Positions 1,657 through 17,651 of a stretch of DNA of 56,935 bases are shown one piece after another (the first letter of the stretch is position 1; every line of letters starts with the position of its first letter). The stretch comes from Pseudolabrys sp. (GTDB lineage: Bacteria; Pseudomonadota; Alphaproteobacteria; Rhizobiales; Xanthobacteraceae). Location of the stretch: assembly GCA_022841665.1 (NCBI GenBank), contig JALHRB010000018.1:1-56935 (forward strand), in the 5' to 3' direction. The notes beneath the pieces are model-generated. The model was not told the origin of the DNA, made no database searches, and saw nothing but the letters and a program-made list of their open reading frames with translations. The position numbers and the translations under genes were made by a program.

Positions 1657-2742
1657 TCAGCGAGCCCCGGCATGGTCAAAGTTCGCCCACACGCCGTCCT
1701 CTCCATCCCACGCGCCGCGGCTGGCGCCTTTCGAGTATTCCGTCGCGCGCTGCTCGAAGAAATTAGCGTGCTCGACGCCGTTGAGAATCTCGACCAGCCA
1801 GGGCAGCGGGTGCGGCTTGACCTGATTGTAGCCGCCCTCGGTCGCCTCGAAATAACCGAACGCCGTCGGCAATTTGAGCTGCGTTAACCGCCAGTCCGCG
1901 ACGTAGCGGACATAGGCGTGGATGTCCGCCGGCGTCATGCCGTCGATGCCGCCCAGGCCGAAGGCAAGATCGACGAAGCGCTCCTCCAATCCGACCATGG
2001 TCTTGGCGACGTCGATGATGTCGTCACGGACCCCGCGCGTGACGGCGCCGGTCTCGCGATTCCACTCATGGAAAAGCCTGATGACGCCCTCGCAGTGCAG
2101 GCTCTCGTCGCGCACCGACCAGCTCACGATCTGGCCCATGCCGTTCATCTTGTTGTGGCGCGGAAAATTGAGCAGCATGGCAAAGCTCGCGAACAGCGCC
2201 ATGCCCTCGGTGAAGGCGCCGAACATGGCGAGCGTGCGCGCGACGTCCGCCACGGTGTCGACGCCGAACTCGTGCATGTAGTCGGCCTTGGCGCGCATCT
2301 CGGCGTAGTCGCGGAACGCCTCGAATTCCGCCTTTGGCATGCCGAGCGTTTTCAAGAGAAGCGCATAAGCATCGATATGCACCGTCTCCATGTTGGTGAA
2401 GGCGGCCATCATCATCTGCACCGCAAGCGGCTGGAAGATCGGGATGTAGCGCTTGAGGTAGTTGTCGCCGACTTCGATGTCGGACTGCGTGAAGAAGCGG
2501 AAGATTTGCGTGAGCAAAGCACGCTCGCTCGGCGTGACGCGGTCGGAGGCCCAGTCCTTCAAGTCGGCGCCAAGCGGCACCTCCTCACCCATCCAGTGCG
2601 TCTGCTGCTGTCGCTTCCAGAACTCGTAAGCCCAGGCATAGCGATCGACGTCGTAGGTGCCGGTGGAATCCAGCAGGCCGACGCGGCCTTTGCCGATGAG
2701 CGCACGTGGATCGATGTCCGCCATGCCGGAAATCACTGACAT
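1657..2742 (-). CDS. nrdB: Ribonucleotide reductase, class I small (radical) subunit
   Basis: 361 residues. It generates the di-iron/tyrosyl radical used by the large subunit to reduce ribonucleotides. Aligning by eye with E. coli NrdB gives a constant offset: metal ligands D88, E119, H122, E179, E213 and H216, and the radical tyrosine Y126 in the motif ETVHIDAY. Because that tyrosine is kept, this is a conventional tyrosyl-radical enzyme. The start at 2742 overlaps the end of nrdA by 10 bases, so the two are translationally coupled. The much longer upstream frame is only the shadow of the nrdA end. There is no N-terminal ATP-cone. It lies in the same transcript as nrdA behind the cobalamin riboswitch and so should share its control. 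Confidence 0.95.
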   Translation of the reverse strand: MSVISGMADIDPRALIGKGRVGLLDSTGTYDVDRYAWAYEFWKRQQQTHWMGEEVPLGADLKDWASDRVTPSERALLTQIFRFFTQSDIEVGDNYLKRYIPIFQPLAVQMMMAAFTNMETVHIDAYALLLKTLGMPKAEFEAFRDYAEMRAKADYMHEFGVDTVADVARTLAMFGAFTEGMALFASFAMLLNFPRHNKMNGMGQIVSWSVRDESLHCEGVIRLFHEWNRETGAVTRGVRDDIIDVAKTMVGLEERFVDLAFGLGGIDGMTPADIHAYVRYVADWRLTQLKLPTAFGYFEATEGGYNQVKPHPLPWLVEILNGVEHANFFEQRATEYSKGASRGAWDGEDGVWANFDHAGAR

Positions 2743-4679
2743 GCCAGACACTCCTCGTAATCGACGCGTGCTACCGTCCCGAAGGTCCGCTCCCGCCCGC
2801 CTTTCTCGGCGAGCTTCCCGGCGAAGGCCGCCCGCGAGATCGACTTGGAGCGGCAGTAGTAGAGGCTCTTGATGCCGCGCTTCCATGCCGTCCAGTGCAA
2901 CATATGCAGATCCCACTTATCGATGTCGGCGGGAAGATAGATGTTGATGGACTGGCTCTGGCAGATGAACGGCGCACGGTCCGCGGCCAGCTCGACGACC
3001 CAGCGTTGATCGATCTCGAAGGCGGTGCGGAAAGTCGCCTTCTCGTGCTCGCTAAGCAAGTCGAGATGCGCGACCGAACCTTCATGCTCGATGATCGACT
3101 GCCAAATGTCGGGCGTGTCGGCGCCTTTTGCCGCGAGCAATTTGGCGAGGTGCGGGTTGCGGACCGAAATCGCGCCCGAAAGGGTCTTGTGGGTGTAGAT
3201 ATTGGCCGGTATCGGCTCGACGCAGGCGCTGGTCCCGCCGCAGATGATGCTGATCGAGGCGGTCGGCGCGATCGCGAGCTTGTGGCTGAAGCGCGCCGTC
3301 ACGCCGCGCTCCAAGGCGTCGGGACACGGTCCGCGCTCCTTCGCAAGGGCGACCGACGCTGCATCGGCATCGCGGCGGATCTTGCGAAACATCTTCAGGT
3401 TCCACGATTTCGCCAGCGCGCTTTCGAACGGAACGCCCTTGGCCTGCAGGAACGAATGGAAGCCCATGATGCCGAGGCCGACCGAGCGCTCGCGCAAGGC
3501 TGCGTAGCGCGCGCGCTTCATGCCGTCGGGCGCGACGGTGATGAAATGCGTCAGCACGTTGTCGAGGAAGCGCATGATGTCCTCGATGAGCCCGGGCTCG
3601 TCGCACCACTGGTCCCAGGTCTCGACATTGAGCGACGACAGGCAGCACACCGCCGTGCGCTCCTCGTCGCGGTGATCCTTGCCGGTCGGCAGCGTGATTT
3701 CGCTGCACAGATTCGAGGTGGACACCTTCAGTCCAAGCTCGCGCTGGTGTCGCGGCAAGGCCCGGTTCACCGCGTCGATGAACAACAAGTACGGTTCGCC
3801 GGTCTGCAACCGCGTCTCCAAAATGCGCTGCCAAAGCTGACGGGCATCCACCTCGCGCAGAACCTCATTGGTTTTCGGGCTCCGCAGGGGGAAACGCGTT
3901 CCATCCTTCACCGCCTGCATAAACGCGTCGGTGACGTTGATACCGTGATGCAGGTTCAAGCCCTTGCGGTTGAAGTCGCCGGAGGCCTTGCGTATTTCCA
4001 GAAACTCCTCGATCTCCGGATGGTGGATGTCGAGATAGACCGCCGCCGAACCGCGGCGCAGCGAGCCTTGGCTGATGGCGAGCGTCAGCCCGTCCATGAC
4101 ATGGATGAAGGGGATGATGCCCGAGGTCTCGCCGCCCCTCACGGACTCGCCGATCGACCGCACCCCGCCCCAATAGGTGCCGATGCCGCCGCCGTTGGAC
4201 GCGAGCCACACGTTTTCGTTCCAGGTCGCGACAATGCCCTCGAGCGAATCCGGCACGGCATTGAGGAAGCAGGAGATCGGCAGACCGCGCGTGGTGCCGC
4301 CGTTCGACAAAACCGGCGTCGCCGGCATGAACCACAGCCGCGATATCGCGTCGTAGAGCCGTTGCGCGTGCGGAATGTCGTCTGCGAAGGCGCAGGCCAC
4401 GCGCGCGAACATGTCCTGAAAGCTCTCACCGGGCATCAGGTAACGGTCGGTGAGCGTGAGCTTGCCGAAAGCGGTCAGGAGATCGTCACGCCTGCGATCG
4501 AGCGAGAGATCGGCCGGCTGTGGCCGCGGCGCAAGCGGTGCAGGGAGCGGCGCCGAACGCTCGGCCGCCCGCCGGACGACGCGCAGGTCCGGCGCAGGCC
4601 GTGACCCAGGAAGTCTTGTAGAAGCGATTCTCGGCGGAACCAACTGTCCGCTCTGATCGAAGTCGTAGCTGAAAGCCAT
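2733..4679 (-). CDS. nrdA: Ribonucleotide reductase, class I large (catalytic) subunit
   Basis: 648 residues, about 110 shorter than E. coli NrdA. It reduces NDPs to dNDPs. Visible are the active-site loop NLCSE (N323, C325, E327: the thiyl-radical Cys with its Asn and Glu), the redox cysteines C137 (PISCFL) and C345/C346 (AVCCLSSLN), the radical-transfer tyrosines in SLYYCRS, and the C-terminal shuttle pair ECLACQ. The conserved reductase N-domain begins only near residue 67. The residues before it are Pro/Arg-rich and do not resemble an ATP-cone, so the usual dATP activity switch appears absent. The ATG at 4679 is chosen because a GGGG ribosome-binding sequence precedes it. A cobalamin riboswitch lies 110 bases upstream. 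Confidence 0.95.
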   Translation of the reverse strand: MAFSYDFDQSGQLVPPRIASTRLPGSRPAPDLRVVRRAAERSAPLPAPLAPRPQPADLSLDRRRDDLLTAFGKLTLTDRYLMPGESFQDMFARVACAFADDIPHAQRLYDAISRLWFMPATPVLSNGGTTRGLPISCFLNAVPDSLEGIVATWNENVWLASNGGGIGTYWGGVRSIGESVRGGETSGIIPFIHVMDGLTLAISQGSLRRGSAAVYLDIHHPEIEEFLEIRKASGDFNRKGLNLHHGINVTDAFMQAVKDGTRFPLRSPKTNEVLREVDARQLWQRILETRLQTGEPYLLFIDAVNRALPRHQRELGLKVSTSNLCSEITLPTGKDHRDEERTAVCCLSSLNVETWDQWCDEPGLIEDIMRFLDNVLTHFITVAPDGMKRARYAALRERSVGLGIMGFHSFLQAKGVPFESALAKSWNLKMFRKIRRDADAASVALAKERGPCPDALERGVTARFSHKLAIAPTASISIICGGTSACVEPIPANIYTHKTLSGAISVRNPHLAKLLAAKGADTPDIWQSIIEHEGSVAHLDLLSEHEKATFRTAFEIDQRWVVELAADRAPFICQSQSINIYLPADIDKWDLHMLHWTAWKRGIKSLYYCRSKSISRAAFAGKLAEKGGRERTFGTVARVDYEECLACQ

Positions 4680-4790
4680 CGGCAACCCCGTGATGTTGGG
4701 GCTGAGGCCGAGCGGATGGCTTGTCAGGAGACCGAGGCGGTCGACCACAAGCGACCCACCGGGGCACCCCGCCCGAGGACGTCTCGTCGA

Positions 4791-4984
4791 TCACGGCAGG
4801 TCTCCTGGCTCGCGGGTCGTCGTGGTTGTCCTTGTCTTCCCGGTGCGTCCAGCACCAGTGACTCGTAATCTGACAACCACTCGCCGCTTACAGTTGCGGG
4901 GGCAGCCCCGGCTTTGTCGTCGCCGACTCACCGGGTTCCCTCTTAGCTCCCGTCCCTACAAGATGTAGAAGCGGGAGACCGTGA
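4791..4984 (-). promoter_or_regulatory. Cobalamin (adenosylcobalamin/B12) riboswitch in the nrdAB leader
   Basis: Read on the minus strand, the segment contains the ordered cobalamin-riboswitch landmarks: AGAGGGAACCCGGTGAG near 4925-4945, GCTGCCCCCGCAACTGTAA near 4889-4907, the GTCACTGGTGC stem near 4850-4865, GGGAAGAC near 4835-4842, and the B12 box GAGCCAGGAGACCTGCC at 4795-4811. The ends pair (TCACGG at 4979-4984 with CCGTGA at 4791-4796), extended by GTCTCC with GGAGAC, as expected for P1. The downstream gene is nrdA. In this class, ligand binding normally lowers expression. Just before the nrdA start a CCCC-loop-GGGG hairpin (4686-4701) could cover the ribosome-binding site, which would suit translational control; that part is inference. 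Confidence 0.93.
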
Positions 4985-5193
4985 CAATCTATATTTGGCG
5001 TCACGGTCCCTCGATTCGTCAAGTACCTTCTCGCCGCGCCGCAAGCCCCCTCGGCAAACAGCGGGGAAAACTAGCCCTTCGTTCCGGGGACGCGTGCGAA
5101 GCAGGCGGAGCCCGGAATCCAGGGCAAAGGGCGCGGAGCGTGGCGCTGGATTCCGGGTTGGCGGCCTTCGGCCGCGCCCCGAAATGACGGCGA
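4985..5193. other. Intergenic stretch between the nrdAB leader and leuB
   Basis: About 90 bases from 4985 to 5077 must hold the nrdAB promoter on the minus strand, but I cannot fix a -35/-10 pair. The remainder is a palindromic repeat listed separately. No gene is visible. Confidence 0.5.
5078..5188. repeat. Palindromic intergenic repeat (GGAATCCAG family)
   Basis: Two inverted arms: GTTCCGGGG and GAGCCCGGAATCCAG on the left, CTGGATTCCGGGTT and CCCCGAAATGACGG on the right, around a short centre. The same arms recur at 31886, 40079 and 52237, so this is a copy of an interspersed palindromic element. It lies just downstream of the leuB stop and could form a strong hairpin at the mRNA end. Confidence 0.8.
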
Positions 5194-6306
5194 CTACGCC
5201 GACAGCTTCTCCAGCTCGGCCAGGATCGCGTCGCCCATCTCGGCGGTGCCGACGGTCTTCGTGCCGGGCGAGGCGATGTCGCCGGTGCGCAAGCCCTTGT
5301 CGAGCGTGGCGGCGATCGCCTTGTCGATCTGGTCGGCTTCGCGCCCCATGTCGAACGAGTAGCGCAGCGCCATGCCGAAAGACGCGATCATGGCGATCGG
5401 ATTGGCCAGCCCCTTGCCGGCGATGTCGGGCGCCGAGCCGTGCACCGGCTCGTACAGCGCCTTGCGCTTCTTGGTCTTGGGATCGACCTCGCCGAGCGAG
5501 GCGGAGGCCAGCATGCCGAGCGAGCCGGTCAGCATCGCGGCGATGTCGGACAGAATATCGCCGAACAGATTGTCGGTGACGATGACGTCGAACTGCTTCG
5601 GGTTGCGCACGAGCTGCATGCCGCCGGAATCGGCGAGCTGGTGCTCGAGCTGGACGTCCTTGAACTCGCGGTCGTGCACCTGCGTGACAACTTCCTTCCA
5701 AAGCACGCCCGTCTTCATGACGTTGTTCTTTTCCATGGACGTGACCTTGTTGCGCCGCTTGCGCGCCAGCTCGAAGGCGACGCGCGAGATGCGCTCGATC
5801 TCGTAGGTGTCGTAGACCTGGGTATCGACGGCGCGCTTCTGGCCGTTGCCGAGATCGGTGATGGTCTTGGGCTCGCCGAAATAGACGCCGCCGGTGAGCT
5901 CGCGCAGGATCATGATGTCGAGGCCTTCGACCAATTCCCGCTTGAGCGAGGAGGCATCGGCCAGCGCCGGATAGGTCACGGCCGGGCGCAGGTTGGCGTA
6001 CAGCGCCAGGTCCTTGCGCAGGCGCAGGAGGCCGGCTTCCGGGCGCGCTTCATAGGGCACCTTGTCCCATTTCGGCCCGCCGACCGCGCCGAAGATCACG
6101 GCGTCGGCGGCCTTGGCCTTGTCCATGGTGGCGTCGGTGATGGCGACGTTATGCGCGTCGTAGCAGGCGCCGCCGACCAGCCCTTCCTCGGTGACGAACT
6201 TGTGCGGACCCTTTTTGTTGAAGAACGCAATGATGCGCTTCACCTCGCCCATCACTTCGGGGCCGATGCCGTCGCCGGGGAGCAGAAGGAGATTGTGGGT
6301 CGCCAT
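5194..6306 (-). CDS. leuB: 3-isopropylmalate dehydrogenase
   Basis: 370 residues, the usual length. It catalyses NAD-dependent oxidative decarboxylation of 3-isopropylmalate in leucine biosynthesis, as a cytosolic Mg2+-dependent homodimer. The N-terminus [13 protein letters not shown] is the family nucleotide/Mg fold. The signature [20 protein letters not shown] (metal-binding Asp residues) and [20 protein letters not shown] (NAD-specificity region) are intact. The ATG at 6306 sits directly at the conserved start. It stands alone, with a palindromic repeat behind it; leuC and leuD are not in the window. No leucine attenuator is evident in the short 79-base upstream gap, which it shares with the upstream DUF421 gene on the same strand. 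Confidence 0.97.
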
Positions 6307-17574: not shown

Positions 17575-17651
17575 GCGCCCGTAGCTCAGCTGGATAGAGC
17601 GTTGCCCTCCGAAGGCAAAGGTCGGACGTTCGAATCGTCTCGGGCGCGCCA
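17575..17651 (+). tRNA. tRNA-Arg (anticodon CCG)
   Basis: The 77-nt cloverleaf is complete. The acceptor stem GCGCCCG pairs with CGGGCGC, the D arm is GCTC-AGCTGGATA-GAGC, and the anticodon arm is TTGCC-CTCCGAA-GGCAA with anticodon CCG. The T arm is GGACG-TTCGAAT-CGTCT, and the 3' end carries G then CCA encoded in the DNA. It decodes the arginine codon CGG. It stands alone on the plus strand between two minus-strand genes; I see no integrase next to it. Confidence 0.97.

Follow-up and report, generated by a model that had tools for sequence, protein, structure and literature searches.

A cobalamin riboswitch ahead of the class I ribonucleotide reductase genes nrdA-nrdB in Pseudolabrys, a probable OFF switch in a genome that also encodes the B12-dependent enzyme

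The window, the whole stretch of 56,935 nucleotides of Pseudolabrys sp. DNA analysed here (contig JALHRB010000018.1 of assembly GCA_022841665.1), contains a full-length cobalamin riboswitch directly ahead of nrdA-nrdB on the minus strand. The same genome encodes a class II, B12-dependent reductase, NrdJ, and in the class-wide sample that we examined every nrdA gene preceded by the riboswitch belonged to a genome with a class II enzyme. From the sequence and its predicted folds, we propose that the leader is an OFF switch that sequesters the start site of nrdA while NrdJ substitutes for NrdAB, a reading to which we give a probability of about 0.86. Control of a class I reductase by a B12 riboswitch is already known; here it is found in an alphaproteobacterium.

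The aptamer occupies positions 4778-4998 of the minus strand. A cmscan search with Rfam matched the complete RF00174 model (1-189 of 189) to window positions 4998-4778 with 131.4 bits and an E-value of 7.4e-33, the gathering score being 31.5 bits. An earlier note, made from the letters alone, had recognised a cobalamin riboswitch on this strand, and the Rfam test bears it out; the span given there, 4680-4984, runs from the side of the start codon to a point 14 nt inside the Rfam match. The B12 box GAGCCAGGAGACCTGCC is located at 4795-4811, and the L5 motif GCTGCCCCCGCAACTG at 4906-4891. The stem-loop GC-UGCCCCC-GC (4896-4906), delimited by the Rfam structure line and the sequence, is the element that we take to be P5/L5, the expected kissing partner of L13. 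The aptamer lies between nrdA, whose ATG at 4679 is separated from the riboswitch match by 98 nt, and a same-strand open reading frame ending at 5194, which by its look is presumably 3-isopropylmalate dehydrogenase. The ligand is probably adenosylcobalamin. No other cobalamin match above the RF00174 gathering score was found in the Rfam scan of all 56,935 bases. An Rfam tRNA match identifies a tRNA-Arg with anticodon CCG at 17575-17651 of the plus strand.

The nrdA gene (2733-4679, minus strand) encodes a 648-residue α subunit that scores 996.8 bits against NCBIfam NF006577 (cut-off 620) and contains the Pfam domains PF02867 and PF00317 only. Its start, ATG 4679, is placed a few codons ahead of a YDFD-like stretch, as in its relatives. 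The radical-generating β subunit is encoded by nrdB (1657-2742, minus strand), which begins at ATG 2742, overlapping nrdA, or at ATG 2724; it scores 497.9 bits against NF007186 (cut-off 237), matches PF00268 and has homologues in the PDB. NrdA bears the motif NLCSE and a C-terminal CLACQ, whereas NrdB bears ETVHIDAY at residue 120 of its translation (P0002), with a tyrosine at the position expected of the radical tyrosine; we assume the usual meaning of these motifs. Neither subunit has a Pfam match to an ATP-cone. Class I ribonucleotide reductases do not use B12, and by its profiles and motifs NrdAB is such a B12-independent enzyme, as the earlier note had stated. The closest relatives of NrdA among the matches listed for named genomes include proteins of Pseudolabrys and Bradyrhizobium, and the seven best are 82-87% identical to it.

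The predicted nrdJ gene was found elsewhere in the genome (L009, 4437-649). It encodes a class II enzyme of 1262 residues that scores 2308.5 bits against NF005736, the cut-off of which is 1737. A search for genes of B12 synthesis and uptake, which had also been proposed, returned at least CobN, CobW and CbtA, all of which exceed their cut-offs and lie next to two divergent cobalamin riboswitches. The genome contains three cobalamin riboswitches besides the nrdA leader, and the fourth precedes a TonB-dependent receptor that scores below every curated cut-off listed. Other cob-like frames are visible in L010, and the genome likely encodes a complete B12 pathway. NrdR (169.6 bits) is present, as is the methionine synthase MetH (1771.8 bits). 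No match to MetE exceeded its cut-off in this genome, which is listed as 95.26% complete (best match 68.5 bits against 929.95). With MetH and no MetE over the cut-off, the making of methionine would continue to depend on B12, and the nrdAB switch would therefore not make the whole cell independent of B12. Since methionine synthesis would keep its need for B12, it is possible, although somewhat short of probable, that the switch saves cost or iron- and oxygen-dependent chemistry at normal B12 levels instead of rescuing the cell from B12 starvation. Against this purpose, metE may be located in sequence that the assembly lacks, or methionine may be taken up. Such a purpose is compatible with the OFF-switch mechanism, and its odds are not additive with those of the other readings.

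We hypothesize that the leader works as follows. With the coenzyme bound, L5 (CCCCC) would kiss L13 (GGGG) of a hairpin just past the aptamer, and L13 would become unavailable to a C-rich arm further downstream. The freed arm, AGCCCC, would close on GGGGUU and hide the ribosome-binding site, so that no NrdAB would be made and B12-dependent NrdJ would supply the deoxynucleotides. When the coenzyme is scarce, free L13 would capture the C-rich arm and so open the start site, and B12-independent NrdAB would be produced. The L5-L13 kissing loop is described for the cobalamin riboswitch class in passages of PMC9600662.

The predicted expression platform is composed of three elements. The P13/L13 hairpin, CGGG-CGGGGUGC-CCCG (4760-4775, minus strand), is positioned 3' of the aptamer, and its L13 GGGG (4770-4767) is complementary to the L5 CCCCC (4902-4898). 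One fold of 4777-4665 replaces the P13 pairing by that of GGGC 4774-4771 with GCCC 4765-4762. A P14-like helix (4712-4759, minus strand) follows in the minimum-energy fold, in which 4759-4754 and 4752-4745 pair with partners in 4728-4712. The start-site sequestor (4679-4711, minus strand) is formed in the folds by AGCCCC 4703-4698 with GGGGUU 4689-4684 and by 4710-4707 with 4683-4680. The pair U4711-A4679, which involves the A of the AUG, is present in some folds and in the centroid of 4777-4665, but not in the minimum-energy fold of that segment, and the helix over the Shine-Dalgarno-like GGGG has 10 pairs (minimum energy) or 11. The hairpin of CCCC and GGGG at 4701-4686 that the earlier note had described thus exists, but its extent was drawn too short: it forms the inner part of a longer helix, and the P13/L13 hairpin after the aptamer is separate from it. 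A pairing of the sequestor loop AACAUCAC with GUGA, in the loop after the aptamer GGUG, was dropped as a candidate because the Rfam structure line gives L5 as UGCCCCC and the relatives show the GGGCGGG hairpin.

The folding of 4738-4665 was matched by one of 200 shuffled sequences (z -2.9), and that of the longer segment 4777-4665 by 13 of 200 (z -1.6). The paired probability of the GGGG in the window is 1.00, compared with a shuffle mean of 0.90, and was reached by one of 100 shuffles. We collected 61 leaders with start codons set by script; two without a start (L051 and L162) were left out, leaving 59. The GGGCGGG hairpin is found 3' of the aptamer in 58 of them, L138 having no recognised GGGCGGG. 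Four or five of the five L5-L13 pairs, with G-U allowed, can form in all 58 motif-bearing leaders, where there is hardly any variation (permutation over nine distinct combinations, p 0.15). Pairing of the Shine-Dalgarno-like stretch across the leaders averages 0.91 against 0.83 in shuffles, with 25 of 59 leaders in the top tenth. Among non-redundant leaders, 14 of 34 rank within the top tenth of their shuffles by start-site pairing (binomial 2e-6), whereas in 14 of the 59 the start site is paired below the shuffle mean. Pairing of L13 with the C-rich arm, or linker, is also stronger than in shuffles (18 of 58 leaders; top tenth in 9 of 33 non-redundant ones, binomial 0.004), as if L5 and the anti-Shine-Dalgarno arm had L13 in common as a partner; in the window this ON-state pairing is unexceptional (rank 0.32). 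The distance of GGGCGGG from the start of the B12 box is 164 nt in L078 and 104 nt in L044, whereas L076 and L043, which resemble them, have 40 nt and 41 nt: sequence has been inserted between the aptamer and P13, and the hairpin is retained.

Covariation was examined in eight close relatives. The leader helices are paired in 86.3% of alignment cells, against 86.4% with shuffled 3' letters, and their covariation score was reached by 211 of 500 shuffles; the helices surpass versions slid along the alignment (37-55% of cells). The P14-like helix is paired in 88.9% of cells, with one CG/UA pair changed on both sides. In the sequestor helix, the values are 71.8% for the outer part and 83.3% for the core, and changes on both sides occur in one of six core pairs and none of five outer pairs, totals equal to those of shuffles. 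The four P13 pairs are invariant among these relatives and therefore say nothing for or against P13. Translational control, which had been suggested from the start-site hairpin, is thus supported by that hairpin but not proven, the covariation being no better than in shuffles.

Given a working switch, we regard control at the level of translation as probable. The same riboswitch might instead act on transcription, B12 binding leading to premature termination within the leader, through Rho or by other means. This is the mode described for the Streptomyces nrdABS switch in parts of PMC4991794; in Propionibacterium acnes, much nrdAB transcription appears to end ahead of the first gene, according to sections of PMC3848588, and a review names transcriptional control as predominant for coenzyme B12 synthesis (PMC8123684, in part). 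We nevertheless consider it unlikely for the Pseudolabrys leader. The only two terminator-like sites found in 4500-5250 are on the plus strand, none being on the minus strand that carries nrdA, and the hairpin that covers the ribosome-binding site is above chance in part of the leaders. In addition, passages of PMC6538847 describe reduced output of translation reporters under the btuB and metE riboswitches of Caulobacter. A search of 4500-5250 for a sigma-70-like promoter found none.

In the best 80 named loci of at least 589 confirmed for NrdA relatives, which are mostly alphaproteobacterial with some from Wenzhouxiangella-type gammaproteobacteria, the B12 box, identical or nearly so, and the L5 motif occur within 900 nt upstream of nrdA at 44 loci. 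Rfam matched all 18 of the 44 that were submitted. A class II enzyme is encoded in each of the 44 motif-positive genomes, over the family cut-off in 40 and in pieces in four. It exceeds the NF005736 cut-off in 31 of the 35 genomes that are not of the Wenzhouxiangella type, the remaining four (G259, G282, G284 and G308) being those with pieces, and the TIGR02504 cut-off in all nine gammaproteobacterial ones. The other 36 loci were called negative by motif alone, and three of them (L035, L040 and L073) have less than 340 nt upstream and say little. Their genomes exceed the NF005736 cut-off in 25 cases and that of TIGR02504 in one more (G264), and nine others have weaker or partial NF005736 matches of at least 250 bits; G269 has neither, and its locus holds just 18 nt upstream. 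Because the motif-negative loci mostly belong to class II genomes as well, the dependence of the riboswitch on a class II enzyme cannot be tested in this set by itself.

An independent sample of 241 genomes was drawn from the class, 112 of which have NrdA over the cut-off. It yielded 112 upstream stretches of 1.1 to 1.5 kb, taken from 111 genomes, with that of the window excluded, and from a second nrdA copy of G196. For three fragmented genes (G190, G217 and G229), the stretch ahead of the most N-terminal listed piece was used. Class II status was read by hand from the best TIGR02504 E-value, with values below 1e-95 counted as presence; the genome nearest to this line is G162 (4.2e-100). In genomes with class II, 16 of 58 nrdA genes are preceded by the riboswitch, and in those without, none of 54 is (Fisher p 1e-5), the two copies of G196 both being counted among the 16. 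Rfam agrees for all 112 stretches, matching RF00174 in 16 of 16 motif-positive and 0 of 96 motif-negative ones. Counted by family, with the window genome added and G196 entered once, the riboswitch is present in 11 of 32 families with class II and in 0 of 37 without (p 7e-5). As the families themselves share ancestry, the p-values are only guides. Since 42 of the 58 genes in class II genomes have no riboswitch, possession of a class II enzyme does not suffice for its presence; it looks necessary. The remaining reading, in which the aptamer is a relic, unresponsive or serving another partner, would suit an organism that probably makes its own B12 (CobN, CobW) and whose leader could be permanently repressed, but it is very improbable for an aptamer that covers the whole model with a high score, keeps B12 box and L5 intact and is in the sense orientation to nrdA, a placement shared by distant relatives and absent from all 54 stretches of genomes lacking class II.

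Several observations were made alongside. The two nrdA copies of G196 (L162 and L198) are of the same type and each has its own cobalamin riboswitch. Upstream of nrdA in G046 (L121), a manganese (yybP-ykoY) riboswitch matches the minus strand of the retrieved stretch with 63.7 bits. The locus L022, whose nrdA shares 78% identity with the query, lies on a contig titled Candidatus Kuenenia, a bin label that may be wrong. The genomes of L038, L043, L048 and L050 (G267, G272, G277 and G279) contain class II reductase frames of 1101-1137 residues with a two-part TIGR02504 match, broken at profile position 281/282 by a long unmatched stretch, the pattern expected of an intein.

The actinobacterial parallel drawn in the earlier note is in print. 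In Streptomyces, which also has a class II enzyme, adenosylcobalamin is reported to act on a B12 riboswitch upstream of nrdABS (parts of PMC4991794). The Pseudolabrys arrangement resembles that of Streptomyces coelicolor (Borovok et al. 2006, as related in PMC4991794) in having the riboswitch before a class I operon and the class II gene in the genome; it differs in that the actinobacterial control is reported to be transcriptional, whereas the alphaproteobacterial leader points to start-site sequestration. Sections of PMC3848588 place cobalamin riboswitches before nrdAB and nrdDG of P. acnes (now Cutibacterium). There too, B12-independent reductases stand under the riboswitch and the nrdJ operon does not; unlike in Pseudolabrys, two reductase operons carry the element and a large part of nrdAB transcription appears to end within the leader. 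Caulobacter crescentus offers an alphaproteobacterial likeness, its cobalamin riboswitches lowering translation of a B12-independent isozyme, MetE, and of the receptor BtuB, although these targets are a methionine synthase and a receptor, not nrd genes (passages of PMC6538847). The same passages call metE and btuB the only B12-riboswitch genes of this bacterium, which implies that its nrd genes have none. That cobalamin represses the B12-independent isozyme when both isozymes are encoded is given as a general rule in parts of PMC2211319. The nrd genes of Pseudomonas aeruginosa are said, in parts of PMC5962746, to have a B12 response that does not involve a riboswitch. In the main text of the riboswitch-regulon survey PMC3766115, nrdAB and ribonucleotide reductase are absent. 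Among the entries listed, full-text literature searches gave no title or abstract opening on an alphaproteobacterial riboswitch before nrdAB; Rodionov 2003, Vitreschak 2003, Nahvi 2004 and Borovok 2006 may name it.

We tentatively suggest, with the odds slightly against it, that the nrdAB leaders of alphaproteobacteria and some gammaproteobacteria use a common translational platform, in which L13 is claimed by either L5 or the C-rich arm. This three-way C/G/C competition would tie B12 to the dNTP supply in at least 11 alphaproteobacterial families and would be kept only together with a class II reductase.

In Pseudolabrys, an RNA sensor of B12 very likely turns NrdAB down when B12 is plentiful and NrdJ can work. 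The choice of reductase is thereby indicated to be wired to B12 in alphaproteobacteria, as it is in actinobacteria, and no nrdA gene was seen with this wiring in the absence of the B12-dependent enzyme (0 of 54). For relatives with the same leader, among them Bradyrhizobium (L015 and L018), we predict that limitation for cobalt or B12 raises NrdAB.
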